Positions 1 to 10,653 of a DNA stretch of 64,000 nucleotides are shown here, piece by piece. Both the position numbers and the translations under genes were made by a program. The notes under the pieces are model-generated. The model did not search any database, was not told where the DNA came from, and worked only from the letters and a program-made list of their open reading frames with translations. The stretch is taken from NCBI RefSeq assembly GCF_900607225.1, contig NZ_LR027842.1:92539-156538 (forward strand), in the 5' to 3' direction. Each line of letters starts with the position of its first letter. Within the stretch, counting starts at the first letter, position 1. The DNA is from [Pseudopropionibacterium] massiliense (lineage in GTDB: Bacteria > Actinomycetota > Actinomycetes > Propionibacteriales > Propionibacteriaceae).

Positions 1-143
1 CGTCGGTGTCCTTGACGCCTGATCCGTCGCCGTCTCCTGTGCCGTCGTCGTCTGTTCCGGTTCCGGGGGTGACGGTGACCCCGACGGTTCCGGTTCCGGT
101 TCCGACGCCGGTCAGGCCCGGCCTGCCGAAGACCGGCGCCTGA
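1..143 (+). CDS. C-terminal tail of a surface protein ending in LPKTGA (5' truncated by window edge)
   Basis: Only the last 46 codons are visible. They encode a Pro/Thr/Ser/Val-rich stalk followed by R-P-G-L-P-K-T-G-A and a TGA stop. The ending matches that of the adhesin at 1574-4396, so this is almost certainly a third paralogue of the same family. A normal sortase substrate would continue with a hydrophobic helix and a basic tail; here the stop follows one residue after the LPKTG, and a strong hairpin begins 20 bases later. The N-terminal part, and therefore the binding domain, lies outside the window. Confidence 0.8.
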   Translation, partial: SVSLTPDPSPSPVPSSSVPVPGVTVTPTVPVPVPTPVRPGLPKTGA

Positions 144-162
144 TCACGGCAACATCTCACAT

Positions 163-192
163 GGGCCCCGATCCCGTCAGGGATCGGGGCCC
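163..192 (+). terminator. Hairpin terminator after the truncated surface protein
   Basis: A perfect 13-bp inverted repeat (GGGCCCCGATCCC / GGGATCGGGGCCC) with a 4-base loop starts 20 bases after the stop at 143. There is no T-run, as is common in high-GC actinobacteria. The paralogue at 1574-4396 has an equivalent hairpin at 4409-4448. Confidence 0.7.
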
Positions 193-1573: not shown

Positions 1574-4396
1574 TTGAGGACAATCAGGACCCGCGGGAAG
1601 CGGAGATCGTTGGCGGTCTTCCTGGCATTTCTGATCGGCTTGGCCGGGATCGTGACAACGAGCTCCGAGGCAAGGGCCGACGAGGTTTCCGCCATCGACA
1701 CGGCGAGCATCACACTCACGAAAATGGACGCCGAAGAGGCCGCGATCTACATGTGGAGCAACGTGAGGGTGGATGCGAACTGGAGCATCCCGGACGGCAC
1801 CGGGAGGTCCGGTGACACCTTCAAGATCGTGCTGCCGAAGGAACTCGGGGGAGTCGAGGGCGCCTTCGACCTCCAGGGCCGGGCGGGCGATCCGCTGACC
1901 TATGGCACCTGCCAGATCACCAGGCCCGAGGTGGTCTGCACCTTCAACGCCAACGTGGAGGGCAAGAACAACGTCGGCGGCTCGCTCTGGCTGAAAACCC
2001 AGGTCGTCGCCCTGACGACGGCCTCCAAGCTCAACTTCGAGGTGAACAACGGGACGAAGGTGGATGTGCCGCTCCCCGACGGGCAGCAGGGCATCGACTA
2101 CAAGCCCTACGTCCCGACCGAGATCGACAAGTCCGGGTGGTTCCCCGGCACCGACCAGACCGCCGTCCACTGGCGCATCGTGGTACCCGGGGTCCAGATC
2201 GCCGACCGCTCCAGAGTGACCATCATCGACGACTACCGGCAGGCGGGATCGAACCTCATCGTGTCCGAGGGACATCCGAAGATCTTCTGGATCCCCAGCA
2301 CCCCGAAGTGCTGGAACGAACTCGGAACCGCGGAGTGCCGCAACGACCTGAGCGACTCCAGCGTGCCGTCGAGCACCGTCACGGTCGACGACGACAAGGA
2401 CCAGGTGAGTGTCATCCTCGACAACAACGGCCAGAACTTCCAGGCCGACCGGATCTACGTGTTCGACCTGGAGATCAAGACCGACGGCGAAATCCCCGTC
2501 GGATCCCAGTACGTCAACCGGGGCTTCGTGGACGGCGTGCTGCGCACCGCCCGCGCCGAGAAAACCTCCTCGGGTGGCGGCACAGGAGCCGGCGACGCCG
2601 TCGGGCACATCAGCGTGAAGAAAACCGTTGCGAACGGCAACGTCCCCGGTGACACCATGTTCCCGGTGACCTGGACCTACCAGTACAAGGGCGCCACCCA
2701 CACCGGAGAACTGTCCGTCAAGGGCGACGGCACCGTGGAAACTCTGAACAACATCCCCAACGGTGTGGTCGTCACGTTCACGGAGAGGATCCCGGCGGTT
2801 TCCGGGGTCGATTTCGGCGATCCCGTGTTCTCCGGTACCGGGGTGGCCGACGGGGTTCCGGACGCCAACAGCGCCCAGGTCACCGTCGAGGGCTTGAAAA
2901 CCGCCGAGGTGACCCTCATCAATCCGGTCAATCCGAAGCTGGCCACGGTCAGCGTGACTCCGGGGGTGTGTGCCCCGGGTGCGGCGGAGCCGTCGGACCC
3001 CACGGTTGAGATCGCTCCCACCGACGGGATCACGTATTCGGCGCCGGAGTTCACCAAAGCCGGGGATCAGGTGACGGTCAAGGTGACCGCCACCCCGGCG
3101 GCGGGCCGGGAAATCGATGACCAGAACCTTCCGAGCGGATGGGTCGCCAACGGGGACGGCACCTTCACCTTCACCACGACGGTCACCCAACCGACCTGCA
3201 TCCGCGACGTGGTGCCGGCCGTCCCGAACGTGACTCCGGGCGCGTGCCCGGTGGATTCGACCACCCCCACCCGGCCGGGCGTCACGGGGATCGACGACAC
3301 CGGACAGATCGACTACGGGGAACCCGTCTTCGTCGTGAACGGCGACCGGGTGACGGTGACCGTGACCGCCACCGCGAAGACCGGGCACCGGATCGATGTG
3401 GCGAACCTGCCCGAGGGGTGGGGTGTGGTCGGTGGTGTGGTGACCTACACCTCGACGCTCACCCAGCCGAGGTGTGCGGTGCCGGTGGTCCCGAGGATTG
3501 ATGCGGGTACGTGTCCGGCGGATTCGCTGACCCCGACGCCTCCGAGCGCGTCGATCGATGAGGTGGAGGGCCTGGAGTTCTCCGAACCGAGGATCGAGGT
3601 GAGGGACGGCAAGGTGACCGTTTCTGCTGCTGCGACGGCGAAGACGGGGTATCAGATCGGCGGTCCGTTGCCGGAGGGGTGGACGCGGGTGGACGAAACC
3701 TCCGCCACCTTCACCACCACCAAGGACCAACCGGTGTGTCAGCCCACGAAGGTGATTCCGGTGGCACCGACGGTCTCGGCGAGCGTCTGCAAGGCAGATT
3801 CCACCACGCCCAGCGAACCCGAGATCACGCTGCCGACCACCGAGGGCATCACCTACGCGGTGACCAGCCGTGAGGTCGTGGGCGGAAAGTTCAGGTACAC
3901 CGTCACCGCGAGCCCGGCTAACGAGGTGTTCGCGATCGACACCGACAATCTCGGTGCGGGCTGGGGAGCCCCCGTGAACGGGGCCTCAACCTACACCGGT
4001 GAGGTCGACGTTCCCACATGCGTGGTTCCGGTGGTTCCGAGGATTGATGTGGGGTCCTGTCCTGCCGGGGCGACCACTCCGACTGCTCCGAGTGCGGTCT
4101 TTGATGAGGTGGAGGGTCTGGAGTTCTCCGAGCCGAGTATCGAGGTGAGGGACGGCAAGGTGAGGGTCACGGCCACCGCTACGGCGAAGGCCGGATACCA
4201 GATCGGTGGTCCGCTGCCCGAGGGGTGGACGCGGGTGAACGAGACCTCCGCCACCTTCACGACGGTGAAGGACCAGCCGGCCTGCGGCGTCTCGCCGACA
4301 CCGACGGCCCCTCCGTCGGTGACCCCGACCCCGGTCCCGACGGCAACCGTCACGCCGACCCCGATCAGGCCCGGTCTGCCGAAGACCGGCGCCTGA
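1574..4396 (+). CDS. Secreted repeat adhesin ending in LPKTGA without a membrane anchor
   Basis: About 940 aa from TTG 1574. Residues 1-36 form a signal peptide: basic start, hydrophobic core, then S-E-A-R-A before D-E-V. Residues about 40-340 form an Ig-like adhesin head with W-S-I-P-D-G and G-D-T-F-K-I-V-L-P-K-E-L, as in actinobacterial collagen-binding/fimbrial heads. A DUF5979-like domain follows (starts V-G-H-I-S-V-K-K, ends V-T-L-I-N-P-V), then five repeats of about 88 aa. Each repeat has one Cys near its start (such as G-V-C-A-P-G) and one at its end (such as P-T-C), suggesting an internal disulfide. A Pro/Thr stalk leads to G-L-P-K-T-G-A and stop. A hydrophobic helix and basic tail are absent and no downstream frame supplies them. 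Aligning the N-terminus with the paralogue at 8881 supports TTG 1574 over ATG 1541. Function is inferred as surface attachment; the ligand is unknown. Confidence 0.85.
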   Translation: MRTIRTRGKRRSLAVFLAFLIGLAGIVTTSSEARADEVSAIDTASITLTKMDAEEAAIYMWSNVRVDANWSIPDGTGRSGDTFKIVLPKELGGVEGAFDLQGRAGDPLTYGTCQITRPEVVCTFNANVEGKNNVGGSLWLKTQVVALTTASKLNFEVNNGTKVDVPLPDGQQGIDYKPYVPTEIDKSGWFPGTDQTAVHWRIVVPGVQIADRSRVTIIDDYRQAGSNLIVSEGHPKIFWIPSTPKCWNELGTAECRNDLSDSSVPSSTVTVDDDKDQVSVILDNNGQNFQADRIYVFDLEIKTDGEIPVGSQYVNRGFVDGVLRTARAEKTSSGGGTGAGDAVGHISVKKTVANGNVPGDTMFPVTWTYQYKGATHTGELSVKGDGTVETLNNIPNGVVVTFTERIPAVSGVDFGDPVFSGTGVADGVPDANSAQVTVEGLKTAEVTLINPVNPKLATVSVTPGVCAPGAAEPSDPTVEIAPTDGITYSAPEFTKAGDQVTVKVTATPAAGREIDDQNLPSGWVANGDGTFTFTTTVTQPTCIRDVVPAVPNVTPGACPVDSTTPTRPGVTGIDDTGQIDYGEPVFVVNGDRVTVTVTATAKTGHRIDVANLPEGWGVVGGVVTYTSTLTQPRCAVPVVPRIDAGTCPADSLTPTPPSASIDEVEGLEFSEPRIEVRDGKVTVSAAATAKTGYQIGGPLPEGWTRVDETSATFTTTKDQPVCQPTKVIPVAPTVSASVCKADSTTPSEPEITLPTTEGITYAVTSREVVGGKFRYTVTASPANEVFAIDTDNLGAGWGAPVNGASTYTGEVDVPTCVVPVVPRIDVGSCPAGATTPTAPSAVFDEVEGLEFSEPSIEVRDGKVRVTATATAKAGYQIGGPLPEGWTRVNETSATFTTVKDQPACGVSPTPTAPPSVTPTPVPTATVTPTPIRPGLPKTGA

Positions 4397-4408
4397 TCCC
4401 GAACACCC

Positions 4409-4448
4409 GAGGGCTGGCCCCGATTCCACGGAATCGAGGCCAGCCCTC
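4409..4448 (+). terminator. Hairpin terminator after the first adhesin
   Basis: GAGGGCTGGCC-type left arm (from 4409) pairs with the GGCCAGCCCTC right arm ending at 4448, with GGAATC/GATTCC extending the stem around a 3-base loop. It lies 13 bases after the stop of the adhesin and ends 25 bases before the next gene. Confidence 0.7.
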
Positions 4449-4473
4449 ATTCGAGGCGCCGTAGACTCGCCCC

Positions 4474-4950
4474 ATGGACGACACCCCAGCGCTCAGGAGA
4501 CTCCGGGAACTCGGGGTGGAGCACACCGAGGTGCGGCACGGGCCCGTCGGTTCGGTCGCGGAGGCGGCGGCGGTGCGTGGCATCGATGTGCGCGACCTCG
4601 TGAAGACCATCGTCGTGCGTCGCGGCGCCGGCGACTACGTCTTCGTCCTGGTGCCCGGGGACCGCGAGTTCTCCTGGTCGAAGTTGCGGACCCTGCTCGG
4701 GGTCTCCCGGCTCTCAATGCCCGATGCCGCCGAGGCAAAACGGGCCACCGGATATGAACGGGGCACCATCACACCCTTCGGTTCCACCCATCCCTGGCCG
4801 GTGTTCGCCGATTCCTCCATCGTCGGCCGGTCCATCTCCATGGGAGGCGGGGCCCACGGGGTGGGAGTGAAACTCCAGGCCGACGACGCGATCGCGGCCC
4901 TCGACGCCACGGTCGCCGACCTGACCGCTCCGTCTTCCCACGCCGGCTGA
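4474..4950 (+). CDS. YbaK/EbsC-type aminoacyl-tRNA editing protein (Cys-tRNA(Pro) deacylase family)
   Basis: A 158-aa free-standing editing domain that hydrolyses misacylated tRNA, by family typically Cys-tRNA(Pro), in the cytosol. The N-terminal S-V-A-E-A-A-A segment, the D-L-V-K-T-I-V-V-R-R strand with the conserved lysine, and the later G-Y-E-R-G-T-I-T-P-F-G loop and S-I-S-M-G-G-G-A-H-G turn are characteristic of YbaK/EbsC. Length is typical. There is no ribosome-binding site; TAGACT at 4462-4467 lies exactly six bases before the ATG, suggesting a leaderless transcript. It stands alone between the adhesin terminator and a small repeat. Confidence 0.88.
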   Translation: MDDTPALRRLRELGVEHTEVRHGPVGSVAEAAAVRGIDVRDLVKTIVVRRGAGDYVFVLVPGDREFSWSKLRTLLGVSRLSMPDAAEAKRATGYERGTITPFGSTHPWPVFADSSIVGRSISMGGGAHGVGVKLQADDAIAALDATVADLTAPSSHAG

Positions 4951-4966
4951 GCCGGCCAGATCCATC

Positions 4967-5045
4967 GAGGCTTAATTCATGGCCCTCCCCAAGTGTGCGC
5001 TGACCAGGAGTTTTCCGACCGGCACACCGTCTGTGAATAAGCCTC
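4967..5045. repeat. 79-bp minimal element with IS-type terminal repeats
   Basis: Starts GAGGCTTAATTCAT and ends CTGTGAATAAGCCTC, the same termini as the longer MITE-like elements, but the interior is only about 50 bp and lacks the GGTTGAGCC arms. ATC stands just outside both ends (ATC|GAGG and CCTC|ATC), a possible 3-bp target duplication. A truncated right end of the same type is seen at 30730-30773. Confidence 0.7.
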
Positions 5046-5078
5046 ATCGTTATGTTACGTGGAAAACTTTTGGTCATA

Positions 5079-5132
5079 TCGTGAAAGGTTTTGTGCCGTA
5101 CACGGCACAAAACCTTTCCGAATGACATAACG
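5079..5132. repeat. Left copy of a hairpin-containing direct repeat flanking the CPBP gene
   Basis: About 54 bp starting CGTGAAAGGTTTTGTGCCG, folding onto CGGCACAAAACCTTTC and ending in TGACATAACG. The same unit, in the same orientation, recurs at 6172-6224 on the other side of the CPBP gene. CGTTATGT at 5048 is the inverse of the ACATAACG at this copy's end, so the left copy may be part of an 85-bp larger palindrome. Confidence 0.75.
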
Positions 5133-5150
5133 ATTCCGTCGGGTGATTCT

Positions 5151-6134
5151 TCAGCCAGCGGCGGGAGTGCTGGGTTGGGAAGTGTTGTCCCGCTTGAGGA
5201 TGATGGCGCCTGCGATGAAGAGGATCACGATGACGGGCCAGCCTCCCCATCCGGTGAATGCGGCGGCGACGGGGTCGTAGGGGTGGTTGACGTCGTTGAG
5301 AGGCGCGAAGATGAGCAGTGCTGGCGCTATGGCGTTGATGGCGGCGTGGGCGGATGCTGCTGCCCAGACGGAGCCGCCCCAGTTCATGAGGAGCTGGATG
5401 GGGATGGTCAGGCCTGCGCAGGTGATGATGAACATGAGGACGCCGAGCTGGGGGTTGTCGGGGTAGTTGTGCCCGAGCAGGATGATGGGGGCGTGCCACA
5501 GACCCCAGATGATGGCGGTCAGGGCGAGGGAGGCGGTGACGCCGAGGCGGTCGCGCAGGCGTGGGTAGAGCCAGGCATGCCAGCCGATCTCCTCACCCAG
5601 GGCTCCCACCATGCCGGCCAGGAACAGCATGGGGATGACTCCTGCCATTCGCGGCCAGAAAGCGTCCCACACCTGGGAAGTGGTGAGTCCGGTCTGCCCT
5701 GATGCTTCCAGGACCTTTTGGAATTCGGAGAGGTTCATCAGGTCGAAGTGGTAGGTGCCCAGCAGGGCCGAGGAACCGAGGGAGGCGAGGATCAGGATGA
5801 AGGCGATGGGGATGGAGAGCAGTGACCAGAGGAGGGTTTTCTTCCAGACCCCTTTCAGGCTGATCTTGAGGGTGGAGAACAGGGGCTTCTTCTCGATGAA
5901 GCGGACCACCGCTGCTGCTGCCACCGCCGGGGTCCACATGAAGGTGGTGGAGAAGATTGTGCCGATGAGTGTTGTGGGTCCGGCGTTGAGCAGGAGCCCC
6001 GGGATGAACATCATCCATCCCAGGCCGAAGGCCAGGGCTGTGTAGATGATGATCGGTTTCCACGACCGGTCGACGGTGTTCTCGGCCGGCGCGGAGACCG
6101 ACCGGGCGGGTCGGGACATGGGGATTTTTGACAT
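5151..6134 (-). CDS. CPBP-family intramembrane metalloprotease (CAAX/bacteriocin-processing type)
   Basis: A 327-aa polytopic membrane protein with about eight hydrophobic segments. The three hallmark motifs are present: E-E-I-G-W at 181-185, G-L-W-H (His 214) and the A-S-A-H helix (His 263), which form the metal-binding active site in the membrane. Members cleave prenylated proteins or peptides, or are linked to bacteriocin self-immunity; the substrate here is unknown. The start has a GGAAAGAGAAA ribosome-binding site. The gene has its own small cassette: 54-bp direct repeats lie 18 bases past its stop (5079-5132) and 37 bases before its start (6172-6224), which could have carried it in as a unit or act as terminator/regulatory hairpins. 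Confidence 0.9.
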   Translation of the reverse strand: MSKIPMSRPARSVSAPAENTVDRSWKPIIIYTALAFGLGWMMFIPGLLLNAGPTTLIGTIFSTTFMWTPAVAAAAVVRFIEKKPLFSTLKISLKGVWKKTLLWSLLSIPIAFILILASLGSSALLGTYHFDLMNLSEFQKVLEASGQTGLTTSQVWDAFWPRMAGVIPMLFLAGMVGALGEEIGWHAWLYPRLRDRLGVTASLALTAIIWGLWHAPIILLGHNYPDNPQLGVLMFIITCAGLTIPIQLLMNWGGSVWAAASAHAAINAIAPALLIFAPLNDVNHPYDPVAAAFTGWGGWPVIVILFIAGAIILKRDNTSQPSTPAAG

Positions 6135-6171
6135 GGATTTCTCTTTCCAGTGAGAAGATTTCTGCTCGCGT

Positions 6172-6224
6172 CGTGAAAGGTTGTGTGTCGAGTGCGACGC
6201 AAAACCTTTCCGAATGACATGACG
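6172..6224. repeat. Right copy of the direct repeat flanking the CPBP gene
   Basis: CGTGAAAGGTTGTGTGTCG, then GCGACGCAAAACCTTTC and TGACATGACG. It differs from the left copy mainly in compensated stem positions, so the fold is kept. It occupies the promoter side of the CPBP gene and the 3' side of the histidine-kinase gene at 6265. Confidence 0.7.
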
Positions 6225-6264
6225 ACAGGAGACCGGGGATGGTCAGGGCAGAAGCCCGAGATGT

Positions 6265-7536
6265 TCAGGACTCGACGGGGAGTGTGATGTGCGCGGACGT
6301 CGGACCGCCAATCGGGCTTTGGATCACCAGGAGGCCGTCGAAGGCCGCCAGGCGTCGTTCGATTCCGCGCAGACCGGTGCCGGTTTCGGGATTGGCCCCG
6401 CCCCGACCATCGTCGGTGACGCTGATCCGCAGCTCGTCGTTCTCGACCCGCAGGTCAATGTCGACCCGGTTGGCGCCGGAGTGTTTCACCACGTTGCCCA
6501 GCAGCTCGGAGACCGCGAAGTAGGCAGCCGACTCCAGTGCCGGACCCACTCGCTCGGGAATCTCGATGTTCACCTCCGCAGATATCGCACAGTCCGCCGC
6601 CAGGGCCCTCACGGCGTCGCCCAGCCCGCGGTCGGCCAGCACCGGAGGATGGATTCCGCGCACCAGGTCACGCAGCTCGCCGAGTGCCGTGGCGGAGGCG
6701 TTCTTGGCCTCGGTCAGCAGCGCCTCGGCGGCCTCCGGGTTGCTGCGCATCATTGCTTGGGCGGTGTTGATGGTCATGCCCATCGCCACCAGACGGGCCT
6801 GGGTGCCGTCGTGGAGGTCGCGTTCGATGCGGCGCAGCTCGGCCGCGGAGGAGTCGCGGGTCTCCCGCCGGGTCTGTGACAGGGCAGCCATCCGGGTGCG
6901 CTTGGTCGGGCCCAGCGCCCACCGAACGAAACGGCTGTGCAGCTTCACCCACCAGGGTGCGAGAAGCAGCCCGGCGAGCAGCACCAGCAGGCCGGGAATG
7001 GGCATGAAGGGCGCGGTGGTCTCGTTCACGGGGACGAACAGGTAGAAACTGCCGTCGGGCCAGTTCTTGGCGAACGGTTCCCAGATGATGGGCATCGCCA
7101 ACCCCAACAGCCCGCCGATGACAGTGGCCATGCTGAAAAGCGCGAGCATGGGGGAAACGCACAGGTCCATGAGCAGCCAGGCGACGTCGCGCCAGGTTCC
7201 GGGGTCCTTCACAAGCCGCACGGCCTCGTCGAACCGGCCCCTGAAACCCGGCTCGGCCGGTGGCAGCGGCAGGTACGGGGACTCGACCCGGATCCCCGAC
7301 CACTGATGGGCCATGCGGCGTTTCCATTCGGCCAGTGATCGCATCGCCTTCACCGCGACGGGCACCAGCAGGATTCCGATGCCGAGTGGGATCAGGGCGG
7401 CGGCCATCCAGATCGCGAAGAACAGTGCGATCGACACCGGCCACAGGGTCAGCAGCAGAAGACACCGGCCGAGGGCTCGCAAGCTCGAACCGATGACCGA
7501 TCTGCGTGAGGCCGGTGCGCTGAGGTGGGTGTTCAT
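6265..7536 (-). CDS. Sensor histidine kinase, NarX/DesK-type (HisKA_3)
   Basis: 423 aa from ATG 7536, chosen for the AAGGAGATGAC ribosome-binding site directly before it; the frame is open far upstream but that stretch is only shadow sequence. Two pairs of hydrophobic segments (about 25-62 and 115-200) form a membrane sensor resembling the actinobacterial 'Sensor' domain. The dimerisation helix has E-R-D-L-H-D-G-T-Q with phospho-accepting His 242, and the C-terminal HATPase contains S-E-L-L-G-N-V-V-K-H (N box) and D-D-G-R-G-G-A (G1 box). It pairs with the divergent regulator at 7756. The signal is unknown; many such pairs in this group sense envelope stress or control neighbouring ABC transporters. 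Confidence 0.92.
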   Translation of the reverse strand: MNTHLSAPASRRSVIGSSLRALGRCLLLLTLWPVSIALFFAIWMAAALIPLGIGILLVPVAVKAMRSLAEWKRRMAHQWSGIRVESPYLPLPPAEPGFRGRFDEAVRLVKDPGTWRDVAWLLMDLCVSPMLALFSMATVIGGLLGLAMPIIWEPFAKNWPDGSFYLFVPVNETTAPFMPIPGLLVLLAGLLLAPWWVKLHSRFVRWALGPTKRTRMAALSQTRRETRDSSAAELRRIERDLHDGTQARLVAMGMTINTAQAMMRSNPEAAEALLTEAKNASATALGELRDLVRGIHPPVLADRGLGDAVRALAADCAISAEVNIEIPERVGPALESAAYFAVSELLGNVVKHSGANRVDIDLRVENDELRISVTDDGRGGANPETGTGLRGIERRLAAFDGLLVIQSPIGGPTSAHITLPVES

Positions 7537-7592
7537 GTCATCTCCTTGACTCTCTGATGCCCACAATCCTGCTGGCGTCCGGCCCGGAAAAC

Positions 7593-7610
7593 AGTGGTGA
7601 AAATACCACT
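7593..7610. promoter_or_regulatory. Possible operator between divergent kinase and regulator genes
   Basis: AGTGGT (7593-7598) and ACCACT (7605-7610) form a perfect 6+6 inverted repeat around an A-rich 6-base centre, in the 219-bp divergent intergenic region. A dimeric LuxR-type regulator such as the one encoded at 7756 could bind it. TAGCCT at about 7716 may be the -10 box for the regulator. Both assignments are inferred from sequence pattern only. Confidence 0.35.
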
Positions 7611-7755
7611 TTTCAGAATGGTCCGAACCGGGCTGCGACGGAGAAGCTGCCCGTGTCGAAACCATCTGATGATTGGGCTGCACACCCGGCCTCGGGAAAC
7701 ACCCTGCCCCGCGTAGCCTCGTGTGGGATGGCAGACTCCTTCCCGGAGGTGATGA

Positions 7756-8442
7756 GTGGTGCGTGTGTTGATTGCTGAGGACCAGTTCCTGTTGCGCGAC
7801 GGTCTCAGCCGGATGCTGCAGGCGCTGGGCAATGAGGTCGTCGCGGTCGTACAGACCGCTTCCGAGCTGCGCAGGGCGTTGCTGACCGAGGACGTGGACG
7901 TCGCCATCGTGGACGTTCGGCTGCCCCCGACGTTCACCGACGAAGGACTGCGAATCGCGATTGAGGCCCGCAGGAAACGCCCCGGGCTGCCGGTGCTGGT
8001 GCTCTCGCAGTACGTCGAAACCCTCTACGCCCGCGAACTCATGGAGGACAGGCGCGGCGGGGTGGGTTACCTCCTCAAGGACCGCGTGCTGGGTGGCGAT
8101 CAGTTCCTCGACGCCGTGCAGCAGGTGGCGGCCGGGGGCACCTGCCTCGACCCGGAGGTCGTCGCCCGGATCCTCGGACGCCGCACGGGACGTCCCCCGC
8201 TCGACCGACTCACCCCGAGGGAGATCGAGACCCTGACCCACATGGCGCAGGGCAAGACGAACGCCGCGATCGCCAGGGCGATGTTCGTGACCGAGAAGGC
8301 CGTCGCCAAGAACGTGAACAACATCTTCTGCAAGCTCCAGCTGGCGCCCTCCGGCGACGACAACCGTCGCGTCATCGCCGTGCTGCAGTACCTGGAGGCA
8401 TCCGACCCCGACACGTCCCCGCAGCCTCAGGCGGCTGGCTGA
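7756..8442 (+). CDS. Response regulator, NarL/FixJ (LuxR) family
   Basis: 228 aa. The receiver domain (1-120) has the acidic pocket E-D near residue 8, phospho-acceptor Asp 53 in V-D-V-R-L-P and the conserved Lys in Y-L-L-K-D near 110. The C-terminal LuxR helix-turn-helix (about 150-212) begins L-T-P-R-E-I-E-T-L and includes N-A-A-I-A-R-A-M-F-V-T-E-K-A-V. The start is GTG 7756, five bases after GGAGGT; GTG 7759 is equally possible. It is divergent from its likely partner kinase at 6265-7536. Confidence 0.93.
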   Translation: MVRVLIAEDQFLLRDGLSRMLQALGNEVVAVVQTASELRRALLTEDVDVAIVDVRLPPTFTDEGLRIAIEARRKRPGLPVLVLSQYVETLYARELMEDRRGGVGYLLKDRVLGGDQFLDAVQQVAAGGTCLDPEVVARILGRRTGRPPLDRLTPREIETLTHMAQGKTNAAIARAMFVTEKAVAKNVNNIFCKLQLAPSGDDNRRVIAVLQYLEASDPDTSPQPQAAG

Positions 8443-8482
8443 GCGGGAGAACTTGAACAGGAGACCGTGGCCCGGACATCTT

Positions 8483-8673
8483 GAGGTTTGTTCACAGGAT
8501 GCTGGTTGAGCCAGCTCGTGAGCGCTGGCGAACGGCTGTGTCGAAACCAGCGGGCGGTCGAGAAGCACACTCGGACCCCGAGTCCTCGGATATCCACGGG
8601 GTGGTGTCGAGGTGGACTGCTCCTTCGTCGCGGTCCGGCCCAACCAGTTTCGGAGCGGCTGTGAACAAACCTC
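8483..8673. repeat. 191-bp MITE-like element (inverted relative to the 1274 copy)
   Basis: Ends GAGGTTTGTTCACAGG and CTGTGAACAAACCTC, with the same two GGTTGAGCC/GTCGAAACC arms inside. Each end carries a matching G-to-A-type change (AACCTC instead of AGCCTC), so the termini have stayed complementary. It lies between the response regulator and the second adhesin's promoter; 8674-8853 contains no gene that I recognise. Confidence 0.85.
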
Positions 8674-8853
8674 ATTCACGAACACTTCCATCACGTTCAG
8701 ACCCATCTCGGAATCAACAGGATCGCCGAAGGAGAATTGACGAAAGACGCCGGCGGATTCCGACGGATTGGACGATCGGTGCTTTTCGTCGCGGTGAGTG
8801 CTGACTTTGTGAACTGGCTGATGTACGGGTCGTCGAGAAAAGGGCAGGTGGCA

Positions 8854-8880
8854 TAGAATTTCGTGGCATAAGGAGGGGAA
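8854..8880 (+). promoter_or_regulatory. -10 box and strong ribosome-binding site of the second adhesin
   Basis: TAGAAT at 8854-8859 and AAGGAGGGG at 8870-8878, two bases before ATG 8881. Layout and spacing parallel the promoter of the paralogue at 1574. Confidence 0.6.
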
Positions 8881-10584
8881 ATGTTGAAAACAGCCAAAGT
8901 TCGTGGAGCGAGAAGTTCGGTGGCGTTCTTCCTCGCATTTCTGCTCGGCCTGTTCGGGATTGTCGCAACGAGTTCCGATGCCAGGGCCGACGAGATCCCC
9001 GCGATCGACGTTTCCAGTATCAGAATCACGAAACTGACCGCCGAGGAAGCCGCGATTTACAAGTGGAGCGTCGCCCGGGTGGATGTGAACTGGAGCATCC
9101 CGGATGGTTCGGGGAAGGCCGGAGACACCTTCAGGCTCGTGCTGCCCAAGGAGCTCGGGGCGTTCGCAGACACCTTCGATCTGAGGGACGAGGATGACGA
9201 ATCGCTCACCTATGGAAGATGCGAAGCCACCCTCGCGGAGGTCGTGTGCATTCTCAGCGAGAATGTTGAAAACAGACACGACGTCAACGGATCACTCTGG
9301 GTGAGGACCCAGGTGAAGGAATTGACGACGGCCAATACGCTTGAGTTTGAAACGAACAATGGGGTTAAGGTTCAGGTTCCGCTTCCCGACGGCCAGCGGG
9401 GAATTGGATACAACCCCGTCCTCCCGACCGAGACCAGCAAATCCGGGTGGTTCCCCGGAACCGACCGGACCGCCGTGTACTGGCGCGTCGTGATTCCCGG
9501 CTCCAAGATCTCCGGACACTCCAGCGTGACCATCGTCGACGACTACCGACAGGCGGGGGCCACGCTGACCGTGTCCGAGGGGGATCCCAAGATCTTCTGG
9601 GTCCCCGCGTCGCCCGAGTGCTGGGGAGAACTCAGCAGCTCGGCCTGCCGCCATGACCTGGGCAACGCCAGTGTGCCGTCGGCCGAGGTCGCCATCGACG
9701 AGGACAAGGACCAGGTGAGGGTCACCCTCGACAACAAGGGACAGAACTTCCAGACCGATCGGATCTACGTGTTCGATCTGGAGCTGAGGACCGGCGGGGA
9801 CATCCCCATTGGGTCCAAGTACGTCAACCGGGCCACCGTGAGCGACAAGCAGCTCCTGGGCAGCGCCGAGAAGAACCACTCGTGCGCGGGCAGCGGGACC
9901 GGTGAGGTCGTCGGACACATCGGGGTGAAGAAGGTCGTCACCGGTGGCACGGTTGACCCCGGGGTCGCCTACCCGGTGACCTGGTCCTACCAGCACGGGG
10001 GCGCCACCCGCAGCGGCGAGTTGTCGCTGAAGGGCGACGGTACCGTGGAAACCCTCAACAACATTCCCGACGGGACTGTCGTGACCCTCACGGAGAAGGT
10101 TCCCTCCGTGGCGGGGGTCGGCTTCGGTGATCCCGCTTTCTCCGGGGAGGGCGTGACCGACGACACCCCGGATGCCAACAGCGCCCAGGTGACGGTCGCG
10201 GGCCTGAAGACCCTCGATGTGACCCTCACCAACCCGGTGGGCGCTCCGGCGAGCGATCGCGCGGTGAGCGACCATGCGGTTCTGGGTGCGGTCGATGTGC
10301 AGGTCGGGGTGTGTCCTCCCGGCGGCACCGAGCCGACGGAACCGTCGGTCAGGGTCACTCCCACCGACGGGGTCGTCTACTCCGAACCGAGGATCAGCAG
10401 CAACGGGAACCGCGCGACGATCCAGGTCACCGCAACCGCCGAGGCGGGCAGGACCATTGACGAGCAGAACCTGCCGGACGGATGGGCCGCCGCCGGGGAC
10501 GGATCCTTCGTGTTCACCCGGACGGTCGCGATCCCCACGTGCGGGAAGGCCGTGAAACCCGGCCTGCCCAGAACCGGCACCTGA
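8881..10584 (+). CDS. Second secreted adhesin paralogue, ending in LPRTGT without a membrane anchor
   Basis: 567 aa. Signal peptide 1-36 with a hydrophobic core and A-R-A before D-E. The Ig-like head (about 40-330) matches that of the 1574 protein throughout, for example W-S-I-P-D-G and G-D-T-F-R-L-V-L-P-K-E-L. A DUF5979-like domain (V-G-H-I-G-V-K-K-V-V) follows, then a single Cys-bounded repeat like the five in the larger paralogue. There is no long Pro/Thr stalk: the protein goes from the repeat to G-L-P-R-T-G-T and stops. It is likely a short surface or secreted adhesin, a copy number variant of the same design. Retention on the cell wall cannot follow the standard sortase route because the hydrophobic helix and basic tail are missing. 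Confidence 0.87.
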   Translation: MLKTAKVRGARSSVAFFLAFLLGLFGIVATSSDARADEIPAIDVSSIRITKLTAEEAAIYKWSVARVDVNWSIPDGSGKAGDTFRLVLPKELGAFADTFDLRDEDDESLTYGRCEATLAEVVCILSENVENRHDVNGSLWVRTQVKELTTANTLEFETNNGVKVQVPLPDGQRGIGYNPVLPTETSKSGWFPGTDRTAVYWRVVIPGSKISGHSSVTIVDDYRQAGATLTVSEGDPKIFWVPASPECWGELSSSACRHDLGNASVPSAEVAIDEDKDQVRVTLDNKGQNFQTDRIYVFDLELRTGGDIPIGSKYVNRATVSDKQLLGSAEKNHSCAGSGTGEVVGHIGVKKVVTGGTVDPGVAYPVTWSYQHGGATRSGELSLKGDGTVETLNNIPDGTVVTLTEKVPSVAGVGFGDPAFSGEGVTDDTPDANSAQVTVAGLKTLDVTLTNPVGAPASDRAVSDHAVLGAVDVQVGVCPPGGTEPTEPSVRVTPTDGVVYSEPRISSNGNRATIQVTATAEAGRTIDEQNLPDGWAAAGDGSFVFTRTVAIPTCGKAVKPGLPRTGT

Positions 10585-10607: not shown

Positions 10608-10653
10608 GGACAGGACCCTTGACCTGATCGTGTCGGGGTCCTGTCCTCCTTTT
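10608..10653 (+). terminator. Terminator of the second adhesin gene
   Basis: GGACAGGACCC (10608-10618) pairs with GGGTCCTGTCC (10636-10646), followed by TCCTTTT. It lies 24 bases past the stop. Confidence 0.75.

Follow-up and report, generated by a model that had tools for sequence, protein, structure and literature searches.

The window analysed here, 64,000 nucleotides of the [Pseudopropionibacterium] massiliense contig NZ_LR027842.1 (positions 92,539 to 156,538), carries three adhesin genes on its forward strand whose products stop one residue after an LPxTG motif. We read this ending, which is [R/K]PGLPxTG plus one (sometimes two to five) residues and is called the tag below, as a helix-free sortase signal with a class F-like sortase as its probable reader; the comparisons described here give this reading a rough probability of 0.67.

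Of adhesin gene A, only the 3' end lies in the window (1..143, the remainder being upstream); it encodes a Pro/Thr/Ser-rich linker followed by the tag (PGLPKTGA at 117..140, stop at 141-143). Gene B (1574..4396) encodes a predicted Sec signal peptide (1574..1678, ending in SSEARA), a Big_8 domain (PF17961), repeats, a Pro-rich linker and the tag (PGLPKTGA at 4370..4393, stop at 4394-4396). Its TTG start at 1574 is preceded by GAGGAGG; an alternative ATG at 1541 would give a protein of 951 residues, and on a reading of the translations the TTG matches the N-terminus of gene C better. Gene C (8881..10584, 567 residues) combines a predicted Sec signal peptide (8881..8988, ending in SSDARA; like that of B, read by eye in the translation) with Big_8, DUF5979 (PF19407) and the tag (PGLPRTGT at 10558..10581, stop at 10582-10584). 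Big_8, an Ig domain of MSCRAMM-like adhesins, scores 47.7 bits in B and 42.1 bits in C (cut-off 22.9); both proteins are MSCRAMM-like and putative ligand binders.

An earlier, sequence-only reading of this DNA had noted that the three proteins end in LPKTGA, LPKTGA and LPRTGT, that the helix is absent from all of them and that real terminators follow directly. Translation bears out the endings (RPGLPKTGA, RPGLPKTGA and KPGLPRTGT, each before a TGA stop), and so does a scan of the 45 codons 3' of the motifs, which are free of hydrophobic stretches in all three reading frames. The terminators stand only in part: a strong hairpin lies on the forward strand 3' of each stop, at 163..192 for A (minimum free energy -36.8 kcal/mol, z -5.8), 4409..4447 for B (-37.4 kcal/mol, z -7.4) and 10608..10646 for C (-37.8 kcal/mol, z -3.8), but each lacks a T-run, and a consensus terminator scan, which requires one, lists none of the three; they are hairpins, not classical T-tailed terminators.

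A search of the genome finds five adhesin paralogues, namely A, B, C and two at C1:628-632 kb, one of which is interrupted (L019 8191-9986); its final 51 residues, in another frame, end in RPGLPRTGA. Upstream of B and C, in opposite orientation, lie the arms of an inverted repeat of about 180 nucleotides (1283-1466 and 8483-8665; two arm pairs, 86-91% complementary), which resembles a dispersed repeat element. Between the two genes, a 72-nucleotide repeat with an inner palindrome (5062-5133 and 6154-6225, copies 78% identical) flanks a membrane protein frame on the reverse strand (5151-6134).

Distribution of the tag and its distance to the stop codon

The tag recurs throughout the 3.48-Mb genome to which the window belongs. 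Codons for P-G-[L/F]-P-x-T-G, sought with the downstream sequence left unconstrained, occur 19 times (2 in a reversed-pattern control); all 17 PGLPxTG sites lie at the end of a frame, and the other two matches are PGFP inside long frames. The LPxTG pentapeptide is thus near the C-terminus at 17 of 17 sites, as in the canonical signal, with K, R, E or N in the X position (elsewhere in the genus also S and others). Between TG and the stop there is one residue at ten sites, two at one, three at four, four at one and five at one; none of these ends is a positively charged tail, and none closes with K or R. No hydrophobic 18-mer follows in any frame, save at one site where it is the start of the next gene: the tagged frame (L288 808-1533) encodes a secreted protein of 241 residues and is overlapped by a frame at 1457-2485, which we take to be a gene of the LCP family (wall polymer ligases). 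A helix hidden in another frame is ruled out, the sole hydrophobic stretch belonging to this following frame.

Signal peptide-like N-termini are present on 13 of the 17 tagged frames, as judged by a hydrophobicity measure (11 of 15) and by eye (B and C). The Pfam domains of the carriers comprise Big_8 with DUF5979, tandem DUF5979, SdrD_B with DUF5979, the thioester domain, CAP, subtilase with Fn3, 5'-nucleotidase, LRR_5, and GDSL lipase with PKD; Big_8, SdrD_B, the thioester domain, 5'-nucleotidase, subtilase and LRR_5 are typical of wall-anchored proteins. The tag, being found on unrelated proteins, is therefore not a trait of one family, nor is it limited to the secreted adhesins of the sequence-only reading.

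Proteins ending close to LPxTG in related genomes, the check that the sequence-only reading had called for, are found in quantity. PGLPxTG followed by one residue and TGA is present in 31 of the 38 genus genomes, this one included (158 matches, or 150 with this genome left out; reversed control 2), and in 159 genomes of other genera of the family there are 28 matches (control 1), prominently in genera g14 (8 of 9 genomes) and g4 (5 of 5); a tagged genome of g14, G035, appears to be Cutibacterium equinum. These per-genome counts are complete, most matches having been counted by pattern without being read in context; the pattern is strict, fixing PG, exactly one residue and TGA, and a count of zero is therefore no proof of absence. 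In a collection of 84,980 genomes, PGLP[K/R]TG-x-TGA occurs in 49 stretches, 38 of them in Propionibacteriaceae (Arachnia, Tessaracoccus, Acidipropionibacterium and other members). The tag ends a frame of at least 60 residues within the locus in 35 of these 38; of the other three, two close short open frames (17 and 26 residues) and one lies in a frame cut by the locus edge. The usual layout in the family is a Pro/Ser/Thr-rich linker, [R/K]PG, LP[K/R]TG, one residue and the stop. The remaining 11 stretches lie outside Propionibacteriaceae, five in Streptomyces and six elsewhere; four Streptomyces proteins (L154, L160, L164, L166) all end in INPPGLPxTGx, lack a Pro-rich linker and are probably one unrelated family.

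The distance to the stop was measured with a second pattern, LP[K/R]TG followed by TGA after zero to four residues, in which PG is not demanded. From 117 matches in the genus, nine of this genome were left out and 16 duplicates from sites already counted were merged, leaving 92, of which three are out of frame; among the 89 in-frame matches, a few of which may be due to chance, zero, one, two, three and four residues follow TG in 0, 67, 7, 11 and 4 cases. Being restricted to K and R, this pattern undercounts, because other residues occupy X; genomes without a match to it often have one to PGLPxTGx-TGA with any X. The 55 unique tails include six in frames of fewer than 100 residues; in the other 49, the motif comes after PG in 44 and after [RK]PG in 42, and P, S and T together make up 55% of the preceding 30 residues. 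Sortases work poorly on a free glycine carboxylate. A single residue after G places the glycine carboxyl in a peptide bond, which is the minimal form that these enzymes accept well; one extra residue would therefore be the minimum required. It is close to certain that the tag is a functional, selected signal.

Sortases and other possible readers of the tag

The genome contains two sortases above the Pfam cut-off (C1:1239017 and C1:1531338), of which one is class C and the other class F-like. The class C enzyme (NF033745, 245 bits, cut-off 160) adjoins two pilin-like proteins with LPLTG and a helix (L020 1-5061); these are also the only two PF00746 anchors above cut-off in the genome, a lower bound, as PF00746 may miss some actinobacterial anchors. 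Together they form a further sortase system, of the ordinary kind. Provided that the tag is a sortase signal, its likely reader is the class F-like enzyme, because the class C enzyme is already paired with a motif next to it. The class F-like enzyme (C1:1238984-1239700, 241 residues, with an N-terminal membrane helix; PF04203, 32.2 bits, cut-off 26.6) has the catalytic residues and the fold of a sortase: His142, Cys214 and Arg227 do not vary across an alignment of 20 sequences, and its structural model has a mean predicted local distance difference test (pLDDT) score of 84.6, all 50 PDB matches listed being sortases. Strong matches (E 2e-45 or better) occur in 36 of 39 genomes of the genus; in G189 the match is weak (E 3.7e-4, 24% identity) and in G184 and G188 there is none. 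G188 and G189 likewise have no tag (by the PGLPxTGx-TGA pattern, as in the following counts). Class F sortases were reportedly first studied in P. acnes. In C. acnes, a species outside the genomes examined here, class F is the only sortase according to a review (PMC7913060), and a paper of 2026 states that what class F sortases do physiologically is not known (PMC13251363).

Several points weigh against the reading of the tag as a sortase signal or against the class F-like enzyme as its reader. This enzyme scores only 67.3 bits with the class F model NF033748, below the cut-off of 166, though still best with it among three NCBIfam families. The tag is found in 30 of 35 genomes with a strong class F-like match and in five is not, while G184 has two tag matches and no class F-like match; strict co-occurrence was not found (Fisher p 0.08, 38 genomes). 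No sortase gene lies near any of the 17 tagged genes: about 215 kb separate the class F-like gene, and 149 kb the class C gene, from the nearest of these, the tags flanking the two sortase genes being at C1:1023652 and C1:1680239. Four of the 17 tagged frames have no visible signal peptide (one is unreadable upstream, one is the interrupted paralogue and two, of 253 and 104 residues, are without a signal), and in some relatives of the tagged subtilase the tag is lost or degenerate (see below). Tailless constructs are said to be secreted in S. aureus. From the literature, the charged tail is held to help keep substrates for the sortase (PMC4974636), few LPXTG proteins appear in the surfome of three propionibacteria (PMC3848858), and Actinoplanes showed no phenotype after four of its class F sortases had been deleted (PMC13251363).

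The incomplete co-occurrence would also fit a reader that is not a sortase, such as a carboxy-terminal protease, a ligase or a similar enzyme, the likeness to LPxTG being due to descent or convergence; the conserved [RK]PG block, which reaches beyond the pentapeptide, points the same way. Yet L, P, T and G are the very residues that sortases read, X is variable, and the carriers are of wall-protein types, which makes a non-sortase reader unlikely. Another sortase as the reader, for example the class C pilus sortase, is likewise improbable. An enzyme of this class is present in the genome, a PF04203 match occurs in all 39 genomes of the genus, and G184, which carries tags without a class F-like match, has three; but the motif on the pilin-like proteins beside the class C gene is a different one, LPLTG with a helix, and Cutibacterium (G035) is tagged, C. 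acnes having class F only according to the review cited (PMC7913060). A dedicated neighbouring sortase, as described for the streptococcal protein AbpA (see below), was looked for beside the 17 tags of this genome and not found.

Conservation and loss among orthologues

The sequence-only reading had offered two interpretations: that the motif is used in another way, for example as a soluble sortase substrate, or that it is a conserved relic of a lost anchor. The orthologues of three carrier types and a Cutibacterium metallophosphoesterase bear on this choice. Each homologue search scored only about 8000 candidates sharing most words, and the resulting lists hold many near-identical sequences, the query included. 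All 112 matches listed for protein C were considered: 103 end in LPxTG plus exactly one residue, seven have partial or unrelated ends, one ends in PGPPKTGA, and one, a distant homologue of 27% identity, continues with a helix and a basic tail. Among the best 120 of 2425 homologues of the 5'-nucleotidase of this genome, 67 carry tailless tags (65 of them with one residue), 52 have no tag and one has a hydrophobic end without the motif; LPxTG with a helix does not occur in this set.

In 21 subtilase loci, LPxTG plus one to four residues is found 13 times and a degenerate PPxTG twice (G190, G184); one has the linker without the tag (G172), three have neither and end at the domain (G124, G174, G167, in the last of which the match extends past a stop), and two run off the locus. 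The subtilase of G172, a tagged genome, keeps its Pro-rich linker and ends in NPGLDR without the motif (L252, C1:2309825-2311255), which makes it a naturally tag-less paralogue. Taken with the homologue endings, these loci indicate that the tag is as a rule retained but occasionally lost, and that tag and linker can be missing together.

The metallophosphoesterase of Cutibacterium stops one residue past the glycine, and its three nearest matches (the query's own record and two at 79% identity) end in LP[K/R]TGx. Among the best 120 of 1729 matches, 23 more distant ones have an LPxTG-like motif and a helix (one, 45% identical, ends in NLPDTGA, a helix and KRKRA), 64 end in a helix but lack the motif as defined, several of them having xPxTGD, and 30 have neither; the family is thus ordinarily wall-anchored outside the clade. 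Orthologues with a normal anchor had been named in advance as a sign of local truncation; they amount to a single 27%-identical adhesin, no 5'-nucleotidase, and these distant phosphoesterases. Their occurrence in distant relatives suggests that the helix was probably lost long ago and clade-wide, not locally.

If the motif were a useless relic of a lost anchor on proteins that are merely secreted, such a single probable loss of the helix in a carrier with normally anchored distant relatives would be expected, as would the degenerate or missing tags of some subtilases; DsA1 of C. acnes, too, is regarded as a protein that is in part associated with the surface and in part secreted (PMC5527093). 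Relics would decay, however, and the tag is kept, in 103 of 112 adhesin and 67 of the best 120 5'-nucleotidase homologues: a block of about nine residues is conserved to the very C-terminus across unrelated proteins and species, the length after TG has a preferred value with the zero-residue class empty, and the 158 genus matches stand against 2 in the reversed control. The relic is therefore rejected as very unlikely. Of the two interpretations, helix-free use as a soluble sortase substrate fits best, because the motif persists in many unrelated families and species and its short distance from the stop is constant. That a normal helix was removed by local truncation, a frameshift or sequencing loss (the last already discounted by the earlier reading) is rejected despite the one interrupted paralogue of this genome, given the same ending at 17 sites, in many species and in independent assemblies, with no hydrophobic stretch after the motif in any frame other than that of the next gene.

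Proposed mechanism, precedents and meaning

As a helix-free sortase signal the tag would act in the following way. The tagged protein would be exported by Sec, and its Pro/Ser/Thr-rich linker would span the wall. A sortase in the membrane (most likely the class F-like one) would cleave between T and G, freeing the short end, and join the threonine to a peptidoglycan precursor. The sequences themselves show the tag with its conservation and C-terminal position, N-termini resembling signal peptides on most carriers of this genome, and a sortase that has its catalytic residues; it is the cut, the attachment and the choice of sortase that we infer here.

The canonical LPXTG signal (PF00746) likewise belongs to Sec-secreted proteins of the same types, with a Pro-rich linker and LPxTG near the C-terminus, but the tag has neither its hydrophobic helix nor its basic tail, and the stop follows one to five residues after TG. 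One precedent is AbpA of oral streptococci, which ends in LPKTS-AVK without a helix and is anchored to the wall by the neighbouring SrtB, part of it being released (PMC4974636). There, as here, a sortase motif lies a few residues from the stop and no helix follows; AbpA, however, is one protein with its own adjoining class B sortase, whereas the tag occurs on many unrelated proteins, as LPxTG mostly with one residue, and no sortase adjoins it. Within the same bacterial family, DsA1 (PA25957) of C. acnes has an LPXTG without a membrane-spanning domain or a charged tail; this is a single protein with the motif at 411 of 432 residues, and the portion of the paper available proposes no general signal (PMC5527093). 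That living cells accept a helix-free LPxTG is illustrated by S. aureus SrtA, which joins soluble LPETG-amide to the wall, the authors stressing the missing helix and charged part (PMC3929722), although this is a synthetic peptide and not a natural protein signal. A description of tailless LPxTG as a general signal in Propionibacteriaceae was not found in the openly available literature; what is new is its clade-wide use by many proteins, with one characterised single-protein precedent.

A more far-reaching view, tentative and rather doubtful at present, is that Arachnia, Tessaracoccus, Cutibacterium and their relatives have abandoned membrane-tethered signals for most surface proteins, and that the class F-like sortase uses fully translocated, soluble substrates. 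With soluble substrates, anchoring need not be cell-autonomous: a cell could attach to its own wall adhesins and enzymes that a neighbour had released. Class F sortases would on this view be specialised for tailless proteins, overlooked because substrate searches demand a helix.

Sortase substrates are commonly defined by motif, helix and basic tail, and the substrate criteria given in the 2026 paper demand a helix and basic residues (PMC13251363). If the tag is a helix-free sortase signal, the surface proteomes of Arachnia, Tessaracoccus and Cutibacterium would have been misread as secreted or unanchored, and class F-like sortases would gain a testable set of substrates. The family would then provide a natural, genome-wide exception to the rule that wall sorting needs a retaining helix, and the shortened signal may reveal the role of a poorly understood sortase.

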